DNA of 64,000 bases from a virus, in IMG/VR virus record IMGVR_UViG_3300009011_000002, positions 1-64,000 of that record, one strand, 5' to 3'. The notes under the pieces were generated by a model. That model searched no databases. It had not been told where the DNA came from and worked only from the letters and a program-made list of their open reading frames with translations. The translations under genes were made by a program, and so were the position numbers. Positions 26,760 to 63,253 of this stretch are shown here, in pieces. Position 1 is the stretch's first letter, and the number at the start of each line of letters is the position of its first letter.

Positions 26760-26789
26760 CCTTTCGCCGACTATGCGGCCAGCGAAAGG
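26760..26789 (-). terminator. Hairpin overlapping the helicase 3' end
   Basis: The stem CCTTTCGC/GCGAAAGG (26760-26767 with 26782-26789) overlaps the last helicase codons. On the minus strand it is followed by CTTTTG, so it is a moderate terminator candidate. Confidence 0.6.
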
Positions 26790-29068
26790 TTAGCGTCAAT
26801 GTTCTTCCACGAGTTCTGCTTAGGCGCGAATGCAATCTTGCGCTTCTTCTGGCAGTCGACGTGTTTATCAATATCAACACAAACAGGGAAACCAAACCGA
26901 GGCTTGATTCGGCCACCGAACTTCCCGCGTAGATCCCGCAAGCGTCCGATCATCTGTTTGTTCCTTTGAATGGAGAACACAGTGTGGAAACAAATGGTTG
27001 TGACCAGTCCCGGAATGTCCTTACCAGTCCCGCAACTCCCCGGAGTAGTGATGACAATTTCGTGTTGCAGGTACTTCTGGGGTTCCTTCTTATCCAGTGT
27101 ACCGAGGAACGTGTCAAAGTCCCACCCGGGGTAACGTAACAGGAACTTCTCCTTCATCACCTGGCACATCTTGATCAGGGAGAAGAAGAACAGACACTTC
27201 GTACCATCCTCACGTATGTCGAGGTAGAGATCTTTGAACATCTTGTCCGCGATCTCAAAGTAGAAGTCAGTCAATACCGGGGAATTCAGGATCGACTGTT
27301 CCACCGCCATGTCGTTGTAACTGCCAAACTGCTGCGTCTTGATGCGGAACTTCCGCAGGTCAATCTGGTACAGGTACGCAAAGATGTCGATGTAGTTTTC
27401 CGGGTCCGGTTCTTTCAGGCGCATGTGCACAGGCAACATGGTCTGATACATCCGGTTCATGAACGGGTCGTCGGCCGTTAACGTTGCAGACAACAGGAGG
27501 AACTTCTCCAAGTTGCCGTACATCATTGACAGCGAGACTTCGTGGAACGACTCATGGCCCTCGTCAAGGATTCGGTACCCAGGCTTGATTTGCTTGAATA
27601 TCGTGTCGAGGCACGGCGCATCCGGATCCGTACGGTTATCCCGTAGGTAACGCGCAATCCGTGTGGTTGGCAAGATGATGATCTTCGGACTGATTCGTCC
27701 AGACTCGATCGCTTCCCCAAGCAAGGGGAGTGACTGTTCCCAGACGACCACGTCACCGGGTTCAGTGTCAATCATCTTGTCAAGGTCGTTAATCCACGTC
27801 GTGATATACCGCGGCTGGATCGTAATGATCGTCCGCATACCCAACATCACCATCGTGAACAACGACATGTAGGTGTTGTGGGTTACCACGTAGTCCTGGA
27901 TAACGTACAGCCGACTCTCGTGAGCCACCGAGATACACAACGTCTTCGCTGGCACGCACTGCTCGATCTTGGCTACCATCAGCTTCAGATCGGGGAACTT
28001 CATCCCTACCAGCTCATTGACCTTCTCGTCGAGCGTAAACAATGACGCCGGATCTTTGTAGCGGATCGTGACGTAGTGGTTGTGTTTCTTGCCTTTGTAG
28101 CGTGCAATACCGCCGAGACTCCATACGAGTTGCTGCACAGTTCGTGCGGTTTTTTCGTAGGGGGTAAACAACACAATCGACCCATCTCGCTTCGGCTGAG
28201 CATTTCGATCAAGAAGCCCTTGGAGGAGAGCAAGCCGTTGAGCAGTAGAACCTTCAAGATACTTCTCCGTGAGGATACGATCCGTGTAACCGATCATGTA
28301 CGGATCAATGATGTCCATGCGATCGGCGTTCTGTTCACTCGTGACCAACGGGAGATAGAAGTCTTGCTTGTCCATCTCGTCGAAGATCTGCTGGGAATTG
28401 AGGATCTCTCCTTTACCCCGCACATCACGGTAAACTTCCCACAGGTGCTCAGGGCAAGTCACCGCCGTTCTGCCGTCTTCAAACGTTACCTTAAGGGTAG
28501 GAGTCACCCCTTGAGGATAAACGCCTGTAACGGCTGTGTAGGAGCCATCAATGGTGAGGACCTGATCCCCTACCTCGATGTCCTTCATTTCTTTCCAGCC
28601 ACCCGGTACTCTGACCGGTGTGGTTTCCAGCAGGGCCTTACCTTGACCCGTTGCTGCGTTGTTGACCTTGATCGGGCGTGGGTCCAACTGGTAGTTGATC
28701 CACTCCTTCTGGTCTTCTCGTGGGGTTTTATATTCCTCTTTGAGTTTGAACGTGACCCGCTCACCGCGGATCACTGGTTCGTCCTCAAGCTTGACGCGTG
28801 CTTCTTTGTACCCACAATGGACCGCAAAGGCGATCAGTTCATTGATTAAACTGGCCGGGATCCGGTACTCCGTCTTGTCGTGGTTAGACCGCGCAAAGAC
28901 GTGAGTGACTTTCCAGACTTGTTTGTTGCTGCCCGGAACAGGAACTTTGCCAAACTTGTACAGGTGTCGTTTGCAGAACGGGATAATCACCCGGTCCTTG
29001 AACTCTCCGTAATAGCCGAAGATGCGCAGGTAGTTATGCGCACGACTTATGGTTGCCACATGCCGCAT
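26771..29068 (-). CDS. SF2 helicase (phiKZ gp75-like) interrupted by an intein
   Basis: ATG 29068 has GAGG 8 bases upstream; a longer in-frame extension would start inside the terminator hairpin. The 765-residue precursor contains a Q-motif-like REDQ (117-120) and Walker A ATGQGK, split after K144. An intein covers residues 145-398, and Walker A continues with T399. Motif II is DEGH (502-505) and motif III SAT (527-529). C-terminal motifs include GTGKDIPG and QMIGRLRD (motif VI). The spliced protein would be 511 residues. It directly follows the beta' C-terminal gene, as gp75 follows gp74 in phiKZ, and may work in early transcription or replication. Without splicing the ATP site is destroyed, so activity must depend on the intein. 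Confidence 0.88.
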   Translation of the reverse strand: MRHVATISRAHNYLRIFGYYGEFKDRVIIPFCKRHLYKFGKVPVPGSNKQVWKVTHVFARSNHDKTEYRIPASLINELIAFAVHCGYKEARVKLEDEPVIRGERVTFKLKEEYKTPREDQKEWINYQLDPRPIKVNNAATGQGKALLETTPVRVPGGWKEMKDIEVGDQVLTIDGSYTAVTGVYPQGVTPTLKVTFEDGRTAVTCPEHLWEVYRDVRGKGEILNSQQIFDEMDKQDFYLPLVTSEQNADRMDIIDPYMIGYTDRILTEKYLEGSTAQRLALLQGLLDRNAQPKRDGSIVLFTPYEKTARTVQQLVWSLGGIARYKGKKHNHYVTIRYKDPASLFTLDEKVNELVGMKFPDLKLMVAKIEQCVPAKTLCISVAHESRLYVIQDYVVTHNTYMSLFTMVMLGMRTIITIQPRYITTWINDLDKMIDTEPGDVVVWEQSLPLLGEAIESGRISPKIIILPTTRIARYLRDNRTDPDAPCLDTIFKQIKPGYRILDEGHESFHEVSLSMMYGNLEKFLLLSATLTADDPFMNRMYQTMLPVHMRLKEPDPENYIDIFAYLYQIDLRKFRIKTQQFGSYNDMAVEQSILNSPVLTDFYFEIADKMFKDLYLDIREDGTKCLFFFSLIKMCQVMKEKFLLRYPGWDFDTFLGTLDKKEPQKYLQHEIVITTPGSCGTGKDIPGLVTTICFHTVFSIQRNKQMIGRLRDLRGKFGGRIKPRFGFPVCVDIDKHVDCQKKRKIAFAPKQNSWKNIDANLSLAA
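27875..28636 (-). other. Class 3-type intein in helicase Walker A
   Basis: This covers residues 145-398 (254 aa) of the helicase precursor. It starts with Ala, not Cys or Ser (ALLETTPV). Block B is CPEHLW with H208 and W210, block F has C378 in AKTLCISV, and the end is VVTHN (T396, H397, N398) before extein T399. Trp, Cys and Thr at these places form the WCT signature of class 3 inteins, in which the block F Cys replaces the N-terminal nucleophile. LAGLIDADG remnants remain (DPYMIG near 256; LQGLLDRNA near 282), but the catalytic acid of the second is Asn, so endonuclease activity is probably lost. Confidence 0.88.
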
Positions 29069-59959: not shown

Positions 59960-62900
59960 TTATGCCGCTCTTCGGTTTTGCAACATCCGCTTGGAACGCT
60001 CGACCTTGGCGTCTGCCAACAGCTGGTCGATGGTCAACAGCTTGTACGTTTCTGGTGGGAGCAGTTTGCTGAGTTTGTAAACCTCGGCTTCCAACCGTAG
60101 CGCCAAGATGTTGTCCCGGGTATTGAGCAACTCTTCGGTGAGTTCGTTGATCCGTTTCTTCAGGTTGTCGACAAACGCCTGAATACTTGGATCGATCTTC
60201 GGTTCTTCCTTGGTCCGACCCATGGTCAGCAGGTTACGCACATCCGACAGCGCAATACCCGTTGGGATACCGTACATCGGTTTGTTTGCCCCCAGCTTGA
60301 TGAACCAGTAAGTCAACAGCCACGCAATAACCAAGTCGTCGTGTTGCTTCGAATCGTGGTCGATGCGGTCGCCTTTAGTCCGCAGGTTGATCAACTCGTC
60401 CGCCAGCTTGTCGTAGGCAATACCGTAACCAGTTACCCCGACCGCTTCTTGCAAGAGGCCGTACAGCACAGCCCGGCTCTTCGACGTCGTGTTGAACCCG
60501 AAGTGTTGCTTGAACTTGAGGTAGAAGTTCTTGTTGCGGTAAGCAAACTTGGTGTTGTTCACTTCCGCATACTCCTTTTCATGGTTCACCGGATCTTGGT
60601 AGATCTGGTTATAAATCCGCGTAAACGGATCCATCCCTTTCATGGGGAGCATGATCAAGAGGTTGTCGATCATGTGGTGAGCATAGTTACGCTCGATGAT
60701 GAGCATGCTGTTTTGCAGCACTTCCAACATGTCCACGATGATCTTCGTTACGTCGTCCAGGAACGCCAATGGATAACGTCCTACCCCAACCACCTTACCG
60801 GTCCGTATACTGCGGATAATCAACGTACAGGCGTCCTTGTTGATTGCCGATGAGGTGTCCACCCCGATGAGGAAGAAGTCGTTATGCTCTTTCTTGCTCA
60901 TCTCCATCAGTTGCTCTTGGGTCACAAAGAAGTCCATGAAGAGCCCACTGTCCCGGTACTCCTTACTCCAGATCTTGTCCCGCTTGATGTTGTTGATGGC
61001 CTCCCGGGTTACGTCGTCGAACACCCGGTTCTCACCGTCCTCCACCCACATGAGCAGCAAGTCGATTTTCGCCTTACTGATACTCAGGTTCAGCAAGTCG
61101 ATGGTTTCTTTCACCCACTCCCTGTCCTTACCGAGCTGCAGGTAGTTATACACCATCGAAACCGCAGGTGCGGTAGTCTTCTTAGGCGAAGCCCTGAGCA
61201 GGCGTTCCTTGAGATGACTTTCGCTGTAGGAGTCGAAGAACTTCTCCCGCCATTCGGTAGCGTCCATCAACTTCTTGAACATGAACTCCCCACTTGGGTG
61301 GAGGGTAGTGTTCGGCGTGGTGATGTGGGCAATACCGTACGGCTTACCTTGCTTACGGGCGTTCTCCATCGCGGTCAGTGCAGAAGGTGCACAACCGTTA
61401 ATGATCTCTTCGATGAAGTTGATGTAACCGCTTTCGTCGTAGATCGTGGTTTCTACCGTGAGACCACGACCCAAGTCACCAGCAGCATCCCGACCCATTT
61501 GCGGCACAGAGATGGTGAGGGTGTTAACGTTCTCATCACCAAAGGCCTTGTAGTTCAGGTAGTTACCGGAGTCCTTGTCTCGCCACGTTGGGTTCACCAA
61601 GTAGTCCGGCATACAGGTCCGGATCTTCTTAACCGCGTCAATGAACTGAGCCCGGTTATCCGACTTCAACGTGATGAGGTGAGACTTGTACCCCCGGCCG
61701 TTGATGTAGGTCAACCAGAAGTTGATAACCTGAACCGACACGGTGTTGTGCGTGACAATGAAGTCATCCGTGATGTACAGCTGTTCTTGGTCATCAACCT
61801 CAATGCACGTCGCGTTGTCGTCGAAGGCATAGTCGATGCGGTTAACGTACAGCTTGTTGGTGAGAGGGATCATCACCGCCTTGCTGTAGAACTTGAACGG
61901 TTGAACGTTGTGTTCCTGGATCGGCAGGGTGATCTTCAGTTCACAACGGTTCTGCTGAGCGGTGCCACCCAGGCTGTTCACCAGGTACTTCACATGACGC
62001 CCTACGGTGACGCTAGGGGCACGATAAACGATTCCCTTCGTCGCACTACCACCTTGGTCCAAAAGACCGTGTAACAGCGCGATGCGGTCTTCCAGAGCAC
62101 CGTCGAGGTACTCATGTGGCAAACCGTGTTTAACGTCGAAGTTAATCTCCGCACCGTTCAGACGGCGAATGATCCGTTGGTCACCTTCACCGATCAGCTC
62201 GTAACCTTCCGGTAGGTGTTCCCGGACGTAGGTGTCTTGAGCAACGCCGTGGCTGGTGTAGTACAACCGACCTTTCGATTGCCAGGCGGTGTACATCAGA
62301 CCCATGATGTACGGATGGATCTTCAGCTTCTTCTTGGGCCCGTCAATGGGTGCTACCAACGGGACTTCGAAACGACGTCTCCCACCCTTCTTGTCCAGTT
62401 CCAACGCCAAACGAGCGGTACTGAAGTCACCGGTGATCCCGTCCTTGTTGTCGAACAAGGTCCACAAGTGTTCAGCCCCCACTTGGGTAATACGGCCGTC
62501 ACTCATGGTGACGTTGTACAGACGCATGACACCTTGTGGATGGATGCCCATCACACGGCTGGTCTTACCATGACGGTTCCAGATCTCGTCGCCAGTACGG
62601 AGTTCGGAGATCTTCTTCCAGCTAACGTTACCGTCTTCACCCACCACAGCCACTTCGTTCTGATCCCACTGCATCTTGCCTTGCTGACGCGGCATGATCA
62701 TGTACGTGGTGATGTGGTTCAGGTAAGTCCAGATGAAACTGATGTTACCCCGGTTGGCCATGAAGTTCAGTTCAGGCTTCAACCGACACACCTCTCGCAG
62801 GAAGTACCAAAAGTTAGCTCGGCATTCTTCTGCAATCCAGGTGCGTTGTTCGTTGGTCAAATCCTCAGCGTAAGGATCCACCCCTTTCAACATAGGGTTG

Positions 62901-63220
62901 TTCAGCTGGAGGAGGAAGTAGTAGTTCTTGATTCCTTGCTTCCGGAAGACTTCGGCTGTCCGGAGGAAACTGGCGTTCTTGGTAGAAAGGTCAGCCGCTG
63001 CTTTGTAGCGAGCAAAGTCTTTCAGGAAACGGACGGTCTTGATACTGCTCAGACTGTCTTCGTTGAAGTGTGCCATGATGAGTTCATCACGGGTACGCTT
63101 GGTGTGATCGATCCGCAACCTGCGATCATCGATCAGCTCGGTTGGAAGATTCTGACAGCCCAGGTAGTCCACCAGGTCCGTCGCGAACTTCAGTACGGGA
63201 TTGTCAGATTCTGAAGTCAT
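59960..63220 (-). CDS. Terminase large subunit interrupted by an intein
   Basis: ATG 63220 has GGAG 6 bases upstream and is preferred over an in-frame TTG. In the 1086-residue precursor the ATPase Walker A RQQGK ends at K182. The intein occupies 183-492, and T493 completes the P-loop. Walker B is TIYDES with D595 and E596. The RNase H-like nuclease shows D788 (GVDTSS), E843 (IIERNY) and a C-terminal Asp/His cluster (DRIDHDSKQHDD). The spliced protein would be 776 residues, in the range for phiKZ-like terminases. It cuts concatemeric DNA and drives it into the prohead. The gene is transcribed towards a shared terminator. Confidence 0.9.
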   Translation of the reverse strand: MTSESDNPVLKFATDLVDYLGCQNLPTELIDDRRLRIDHTKRTRDELIMAHFNEDSLSSIKTVRFLKDFARYKAAADLSTKNASFLRTAEVFRKQGIKNYYFLLQLNNPMLKGVDPYAEDLTNEQRTWIAEECRANFWYFLREVCRLKPELNFMANRGNISFIWTYLNHITTYMIMPRQQGKMQWDQNEVAVVGEDGNVSWKKISELRTGDEIWNRHGKTSRVMGIHPQGVMRLYNVTMSDGRITQVGAEHLWTLFDNKDGITGDFSTARLALELDKKGGRRRFEVPLVAPIDGPKKKLKIHPYIMGLMYTAWQSKGRLYYTSHGVAQDTYVREHLPEGYELIGEGDQRIIRRLNGAEINFDVKHGLPHEYLDGALEDRIALLHGLLDQGGSATKGIVYRAPSVTVGRHVKYLVNSLGGTAQQNRCELKITLPIQEHNVQPFKFYSKAVMIPLTNKLYVNRIDYAFDDNATCIEVDDQEQLYITDDFIVTHNTVSVQVINFWLTYINGRGYKSHLITLKSDNRAQFIDAVKKIRTCMPDYLVNPTWRDKDSGNYLNYKAFGDENVNTLTISVPQMGRDAAGDLGRGLTVETTIYDESGYINFIEEIINGCAPSALTAMENARKQGKPYGIAHITTPNTTLHPSGEFMFKKLMDATEWREKFFDSYSESHLKERLLRASPKKTTAPAVSMVYNYLQLGKDREWVKETIDLLNLSISKAKIDLLLMWVEDGENRVFDDVTREAINNIKRDKIWSKEYRDSGLFMDFFVTQEQLMEMSKKEHNDFFLIGVDTSSAINKDACTLIIRSIRTGKVVGVGRYPLAFLDDVTKIIVDMLEVLQNSMLIIERNYAHHMIDNLLIMLPMKGMDPFTRIYNQIYQDPVNHEKEYAEVNNTKFAYRNKNFYLKFKQHFGFNTTSKSRAVLYGLLQEAVGVTGYGIAYDKLADELINLRTKGDRIDHDSKQHDDLVIAWLLTYWFIKLGANKPMYGIPTGIALSDVRNLLTMGRTKEEPKIDPSIQAFVDNLKKRINELTEELLNTRDNILALRLEAEVYKLSKLLPPETYKLLTIDQLLADAKVERSKRMLQNRRAA
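61745..62674 (-). other. Class 3-type intein in terminase Walker A
   Basis: This covers residues 183-492 (310 aa) of the precursor. The first residue is Met, not Cys, Ser or Ala. Block B is GAEHLW with H251 and W253, block F has C472 in NATCIEV, and the end is FIVTHN (T490, H491, N492) before extein T493. The Trp/Cys/Thr set matches class 3 inteins. PHPQG-type and EHLW segments resemble the helicase intein. LAGLIDADG remnants (HPYIMG near 302; LHGLLDQGG near 383) lack the catalytic acids, so homing activity is probably lost. Confidence 0.87.
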
Positions 63221-63253
63221 GCGTAACTCCGACAAAAGCGGAATGATGAAAAG

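Follow-up and report, generated by a model that had tools for sequence, protein, structure and literature searches.

A helicase gene whose P-loop is split in two poses two questions: what lies between the halves, and why it has stayed there. We address them for a gene in the first 64,000 nucleotides (the window, that is, the whole stretch of DNA analysed) of the 226,773-bp phage record IMGVR_UViG_3300009011_000002. Very probably a class 3 intein separates the halves, the 765-aa precursor splicing to a 511-aa helicase and a free 254-aa intein whose homing part is dead.

The host helicase

The precursor is read from the minus strand, with its ATG at 29068 (Table 1). It matches the phrog_16 DNA helicase (6e-42), and its C-extein matches phiKZ gp75 (BLAST E 1e-26), a 537-aa protein with an unbroken P-loop (GKGK/TLTSL; here and below a slash marks the insertion site or its equivalent). 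An RNA polymerase subunit gene adjoins the helicase gene, the same arrangement as in phiKZ (PHIKZ074, RNAP beta subunit), and homology and neighbour together identify the host protein as a phiKZ gp75-like helicase. Megablast of the region against phage records returned no match. Once the insert is taken out, the helicase is complete and conserved, with a computed length of 511 aa: the site is unbroken in GXNNA8, phiKZ gp75 and others, and the C-extein motifs DEGH (502), SAT (527) and QMIGRLR (705) are intact.

Table 1. Positions of the helicase gene, its intein and the other inteins discussed (window coordinates unless another record is named)
Feature	Coordinates	Strand	Basis
Precursor gene, phiKZ gp75-like SF2 helicase with intein	26771..29068 (stop 26771-26773)	-	765 codons plus stop; phrog_16 and gp75 homology
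N-extein, residues 1-144; last residues TGQGK, Walker A through its Lys	28637..29068	-	GXNNA8 empty-site homologue continues GFGK/TYMAIH
K144	28637-28639	-	
Class 3 intein, A145-N398, 254 aa, interrupting the P-loop after K144 and before T399	27875..28636	-	alignment, profile search, predicted fold
A145	28634-28636	-	
H208, block B His	28445..28447	-	alignment
W210, block B:12 (W of the WCT triplet)	28439..28441	-	invariant, 53 aligned inteins
LAGLIDADG block E relic (RLALLQGLLDRNA; intact relatives DTDG)	28199..28237	-	alignment, motif search
C378, block F:4, predicted first nucleophile	27935..27937	-	invariant, 53 aligned inteins
T396-H397-N398, block G end (T396, G:5, T of WCT; N398, Asn that cyclises)	27875..27883	-	invariant, 53 aligned inteins
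T399	27872-27874	-	
C-extein, residues 399-765, first residue the Walker A Thr	26774..27874	-	helicase motifs retained
Terminase large subunit (TerL) gene with class 3 intein at PRQQGK/T	59960..63235	-	
TerL class 3 intein, 310 aa, starts with Met, LAGLIDADG motifs lost	61745..62674	-	
hel2 class 3 intein, P-loop of SNF2-type helicase, outside the window	record 116229-117026 (G000:C1; L002 1525-2322)	+	
Freestanding hel2 intein of G014	L209 3549-4364		
Freestanding hel2 intein of L215	L215 3474-4304		

A class 3 intein between the P-loop lysine and threonine

Class 3 inteins are defined by the WCT triplet (PMC5050341, PMC7664689, PMC7891396). The original prediction was of such an intein splitting the P-loop of a gp75-like helicase, starting with Ala, ending in THN and carrying W210, C378 and T396 at blocks B, F and G. 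Alignment with 52 relatives bears out each of these residues, and the predicted boundaries are exact to the base. Position 1 is Ala145 and not Cys or Ser, the triplet is in place, and the C-terminal H397-N398 is followed by T399 at +1. The triplet, H208, H397-N398 and the +1 Thr are invariant or nearly so in relatives, and across the full alignment of 53 inteins (the window's and the 52 relatives) the block B His and the W, C, T, H and N do not vary. Three residues before H208 stands C205, giving CxxH in place of TxxH or DxxH.

Pfam and NCBIfam made no significant intein call on the precursor (Hom_end_hint E 0.18). A profile search of PDB sequences placed the WCT-engineered gp41-1 intein first (1.6e-19); wild-type gp41-1 ranked next, together with the class 3 DnaB inteins of mycobacteria, these last at about 1e-13. 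The window intein is also predicted to adopt the HINT fold: its AlphaFold model (pLDDT 94.6) is matched by Foldseek to PI-SceI and to the class 3 MchDnaB1 and MsmDnaB inteins, with TM scores normalised by target of 0.78-0.85, resembling PI-SceI over the HINT and endonuclease-like parts and the DnaB inteins over the HINT part.

We infer both the splicing chemistry and that splicing is efficient; no splicing experiment on the window protein or on close relatives was found. In the precursor the ATP site would be broken between Lys144 and Thr399. C378 would attack the K144-A145 bond, the N-extein would then transfer to T399, and N398 would cyclise, releasing the intein and a helicase with an intact GQGKT loop.

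Occupied and empty sites in related phages

Homologous inserts at exactly the same position in EL and many other jumbo phages argue that the insert is not due to chance. The site is occupied in EL, HHBS8, FishSpeaker, ZK_P1, VP4B, AerS_266, AhC3_1, D6, Proteus 10, LucasX, Rebecca and EC001, and empty, with an unbroken P-loop of G-x-G-K followed by T or S, in GXNNA8, RisingSun, pTD1, Miami and phiKZ gp75. The clearest pair is formed by the Pseudomonas phages EL and GXNNA8, whose helicases share 97.7% DNA identity; EL has an in-frame 744-bp insert at the exact site and GXNNA8 has none. We refer to this gp75-like helicase site as hel1. Its intein is present in the window phage and in the IMG/VR relatives G001-G008, G010, G012, G013, G015 and G019, and absent from G009, G011, G014 and G021-G023 as well as GXNNA8. 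The closest helicase found, that of G014 (69% in the C-extein), is intein-free.

Scanning IMG/VR with the whole helicase as single query gave no match, but an alignment-based scan did find relatives, 312 related stretches in all; among the 80 kept, nearly all lie at GK/T-type sites. With 312 stretches from one scan and 1701 class 3 inteins counted in nr in 2020 (PMC7891396), the earlier description of this class as rare was wrong.

Several single loci deserve mention. The helicases of pTD1 (L016, empty, GDGK/S) and VP4B (L009, occupied, GDGK/T) are very similar, and a change of the +1 residue may have accompanied gain or loss of the intein. The helicase intein of Escherichia phage EC001 (L020 1579-2616) has Cys at position 1 plus WCT, a mixed class 1/class 3 signature. 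In Serratia phage 2050HW (L019 1351-3913) and in PA1C (L162 1500-4654) the helicase is annotated as two ORFs with the break inside the intein, for which a frameshift, a sequencing error and a natural split class 3 intein are alternatives; in BUCT660, a relative of 2050HW, the intein-bearing gene is unbroken. Phage records often label intein-bearing helicases "terminase", "DarB-like antirestriction" or "DOD-type homing endonuclease", for which shared intein sequence is apparently to blame.

Loss of homing and the history of the intein

A LAGLIDADG homing intein carries two motifs with catalytic acids, and both (GxxLGDG, DTDG) are present in the inteins of FishSpeaker, ZK_P1 and BUCT660. In the window intein block C (GxxLGDG) falls within a deleted stretch and the block E DTDG has become DRNA; judged by this motif loss, the intein is homing-dead. 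Both motifs are gone from all hel1, hel2 and TerL inteins examined in the EL-like clade. A regular-expression match in L177 (GEPQGDG) is not a LAGLIDADG motif. In close pairs the dN/dS of hel1 inteins is 0.034-0.16, similar to that of the extein; the inteins evolve under purifying selection, as expected if splicing is required.

The extein and intein trees conflict. The nearest occupied extein relative of the window, L065 (record G008), carries an intein of another lineage that groups with EL's, and forcing the window and L065 inteins together is rejected (p-AU 3.5e-4). Sister phages hold different intein lineages at hel1, and a single hel1 intein inherited vertically in all phages is rejected (hel1 inteins as one clade, p-AU 1e-45). 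In FishSpeaker, and again in BUCT660, the tree pairs the hel1 intein with the hel2 intein as sisters, which implies jumps between P-loop genes. The window hel1 intein may derive from the hel2 intein of the same clade; the tree places it so (100/98), but the alternative of grouping all EL-like hel1 inteins is rejected by no more than a narrow margin (p 0.0375).

The full record, from an EL-like jumbo phage, holds three class 3 inteins, in hel1, TerL and hel2, all between the P-loop GK and Thr. The same three are found in EL and in the near-complete IMG/VR relatives with hel1 inteins. EL has a further class 3 intein of 366 aa in its gp39 RNA polymerase subunit (L006 1778-4888), at NAAGK/S and not in a P-loop ATPase; it is the only one to keep both LAGLIDADG motifs among the EL-like-clade inteins examined, and it has no match in the GXNNA8 record.

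Inteins that stand alone

In five records the hel2 intein stands by itself (the FREESTANDING inteins: L212, L213, L215, L217 and L229, the last being G014). About 9-20 residues precede the intein and 0-3 follow it, and a terminator-type inverted repeat lies 3' of the stop. L212 and L213 open with MDSK...GL before the intein and close with GEC; L215 and L217 open with MVNIFASGK and close with SFS; the L229 intein ends VTR-stop. All five share the gene that lies upstream in divergent orientation. No hel2 exteins lie near these inteins, whereas most other EL-like loci of the same scan have full ones, and none were found in the whole records even at E 10 (219 kb for G014; partial records, with contigs of 60-164 kb in G017-G020, for the others). 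It appears that three related phage lineages have lost the hel2 helicase on both sides of its intein by deletion, and that the intein stays on as a complete small gene. In the TerL-extein tree (without G020) the phages concerned fall in three places. A single loss event, with these phages in one clade, is rejected on this phage tree (p-AU 2e-6), though not by the intein tree alone (p 0.061).

The freestanding genes retain A1, W, the His of block B, C and T. For the L215 protein a HINT fold is predicted (pLDDT 85.8), with Foldseek matches to class 3 inteins. Codon differences are 16 synonymous and 0 nonsynonymous between L068 and L069, and 7 and 2 between L215 and L217; with a neutral nonsynonymous share of 0.65-0.75, the probability of such a total, 23 against 2, is 4e-9 to 2e-12. 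A genome-contig scan with the hel2-type intein found no relative, and a literature search for domesticated or extein-less inteins found no such case among the papers it covered. Inteins outlasting their host gene are an unexpected context for this family.

Why the intein persists

Since the endonuclease is dead, with one LAGLIDADG motif deleted and the other mutated, the window intein would no longer spread on its own. It would remain in place since it has to splice and exact deletion seldom happens. Beyond that, the homing-dead class 3 inteins of the EL-like clade may do something useful themselves, those at hel2 having become ordinary phage genes after losing both homing and host protein; we consider the chances of this to be even. 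For the freestanding inteins one might guess at a trans-acting HINT or DNA-binding role.

About half of our confidence also goes to a purely parasitic element in its last stage of decay, of no benefit and heading for loss. The patchy presence of the intein and the loss of both motifs at all hel1, hel2 and TerL sites are what such an element would leave. Low intein dN/dS speaks against it, although the need to splice predicts that by itself; the related hel2 inteins that outlast their helicase are not predicted by it.

The original prediction also saw in splicing a possible switch for helicase activity. A fuller form of this reading would keep the helicase, along with the two further P-loop ATPases, inactive until splicing can proceed, for instance through redox chemistry on C378 and nearby C205. 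The P-loop would exist only after splicing, all window-type hel1 inteins retain the Cys of CxxH, such inteins sit in three ATPases of a single phage, and H2O2 inhibits the M. smegmatis DnaB class 3 P-loop intein via its catalytic Cys (PMC6195587). Yet the site is empty in the near relatives listed above, from GXNNA8 to G023, and sister phages hold different lineages there. Near relatives manage with no intein at the site, so splicing is not a needed control, and we regard a conditional switch as unlikely; an effect on the helicase under some conditions may still arise as a by-product, as the example of M. smegmatis DnaBi1 would suggest (PMC6195587). An insert that is dead and does not splice, of the pseudogene kind known from the Arthrobacter Arth_1007 intein (PMC3196547), has nothing specific in its favour. 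It is very improbable given that no catalytic residue is missing, the reading frame runs unbroken across both exteins, the helicase motifs are intact, and purifying selection acts on the relatives.

Comparison with known systems

The window intein, in our preferred reading a splicing but homing-dead class 3 intein, is a new case of an already known class. It is a clean one, with natural occupied and empty alleles, and is useful for work on splicing within a jumbo-phage helicase. The wider set, with three homing-dead inteins per phage, one intein lineage replaced by another at a single site, moves from one P-loop gene to another and inteins outliving their host gene, makes testable the long-standing question of why inteins without a working endonuclease persist.

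The closest parallel is the intein of EL gp40 (YP_418073, annotated only as helicase), with the same helicase, GK/T site and class 3 residues and the same loss of endonuclease motifs; it is 248 aa long, 38% identical to the window's and of a different lineage in the tree. M. smegmatis DnaB intein 1 and M. chimaera DnaB1 (solved structures 6bs8, 6rix and 6riy) share the class and HINT fold, and the former is likewise a P-loop insertion with no endonuclease (PMC6195587). Those inteins are about 140 aa long with a short linker and sit in DnaB, whereas the window intein keeps an endonuclease relic of about 100 aa and has an SF2 helicase as host. The mycobacteriophage TerL1-a intein, likened here by its description, also lies between the invariant P-loop Lys and Thr, a "classic" site (PMC5050341), but in a mycobacteriophage terminase. 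The orphan class 3 intein Arth_1007 of Arthrobacter FB24 (PMC3196547) has almost no extein, as do the freestanding hel2 inteins; it is an inactive pseudogene, whereas the phage genes keep their key residues and show purifying selection.
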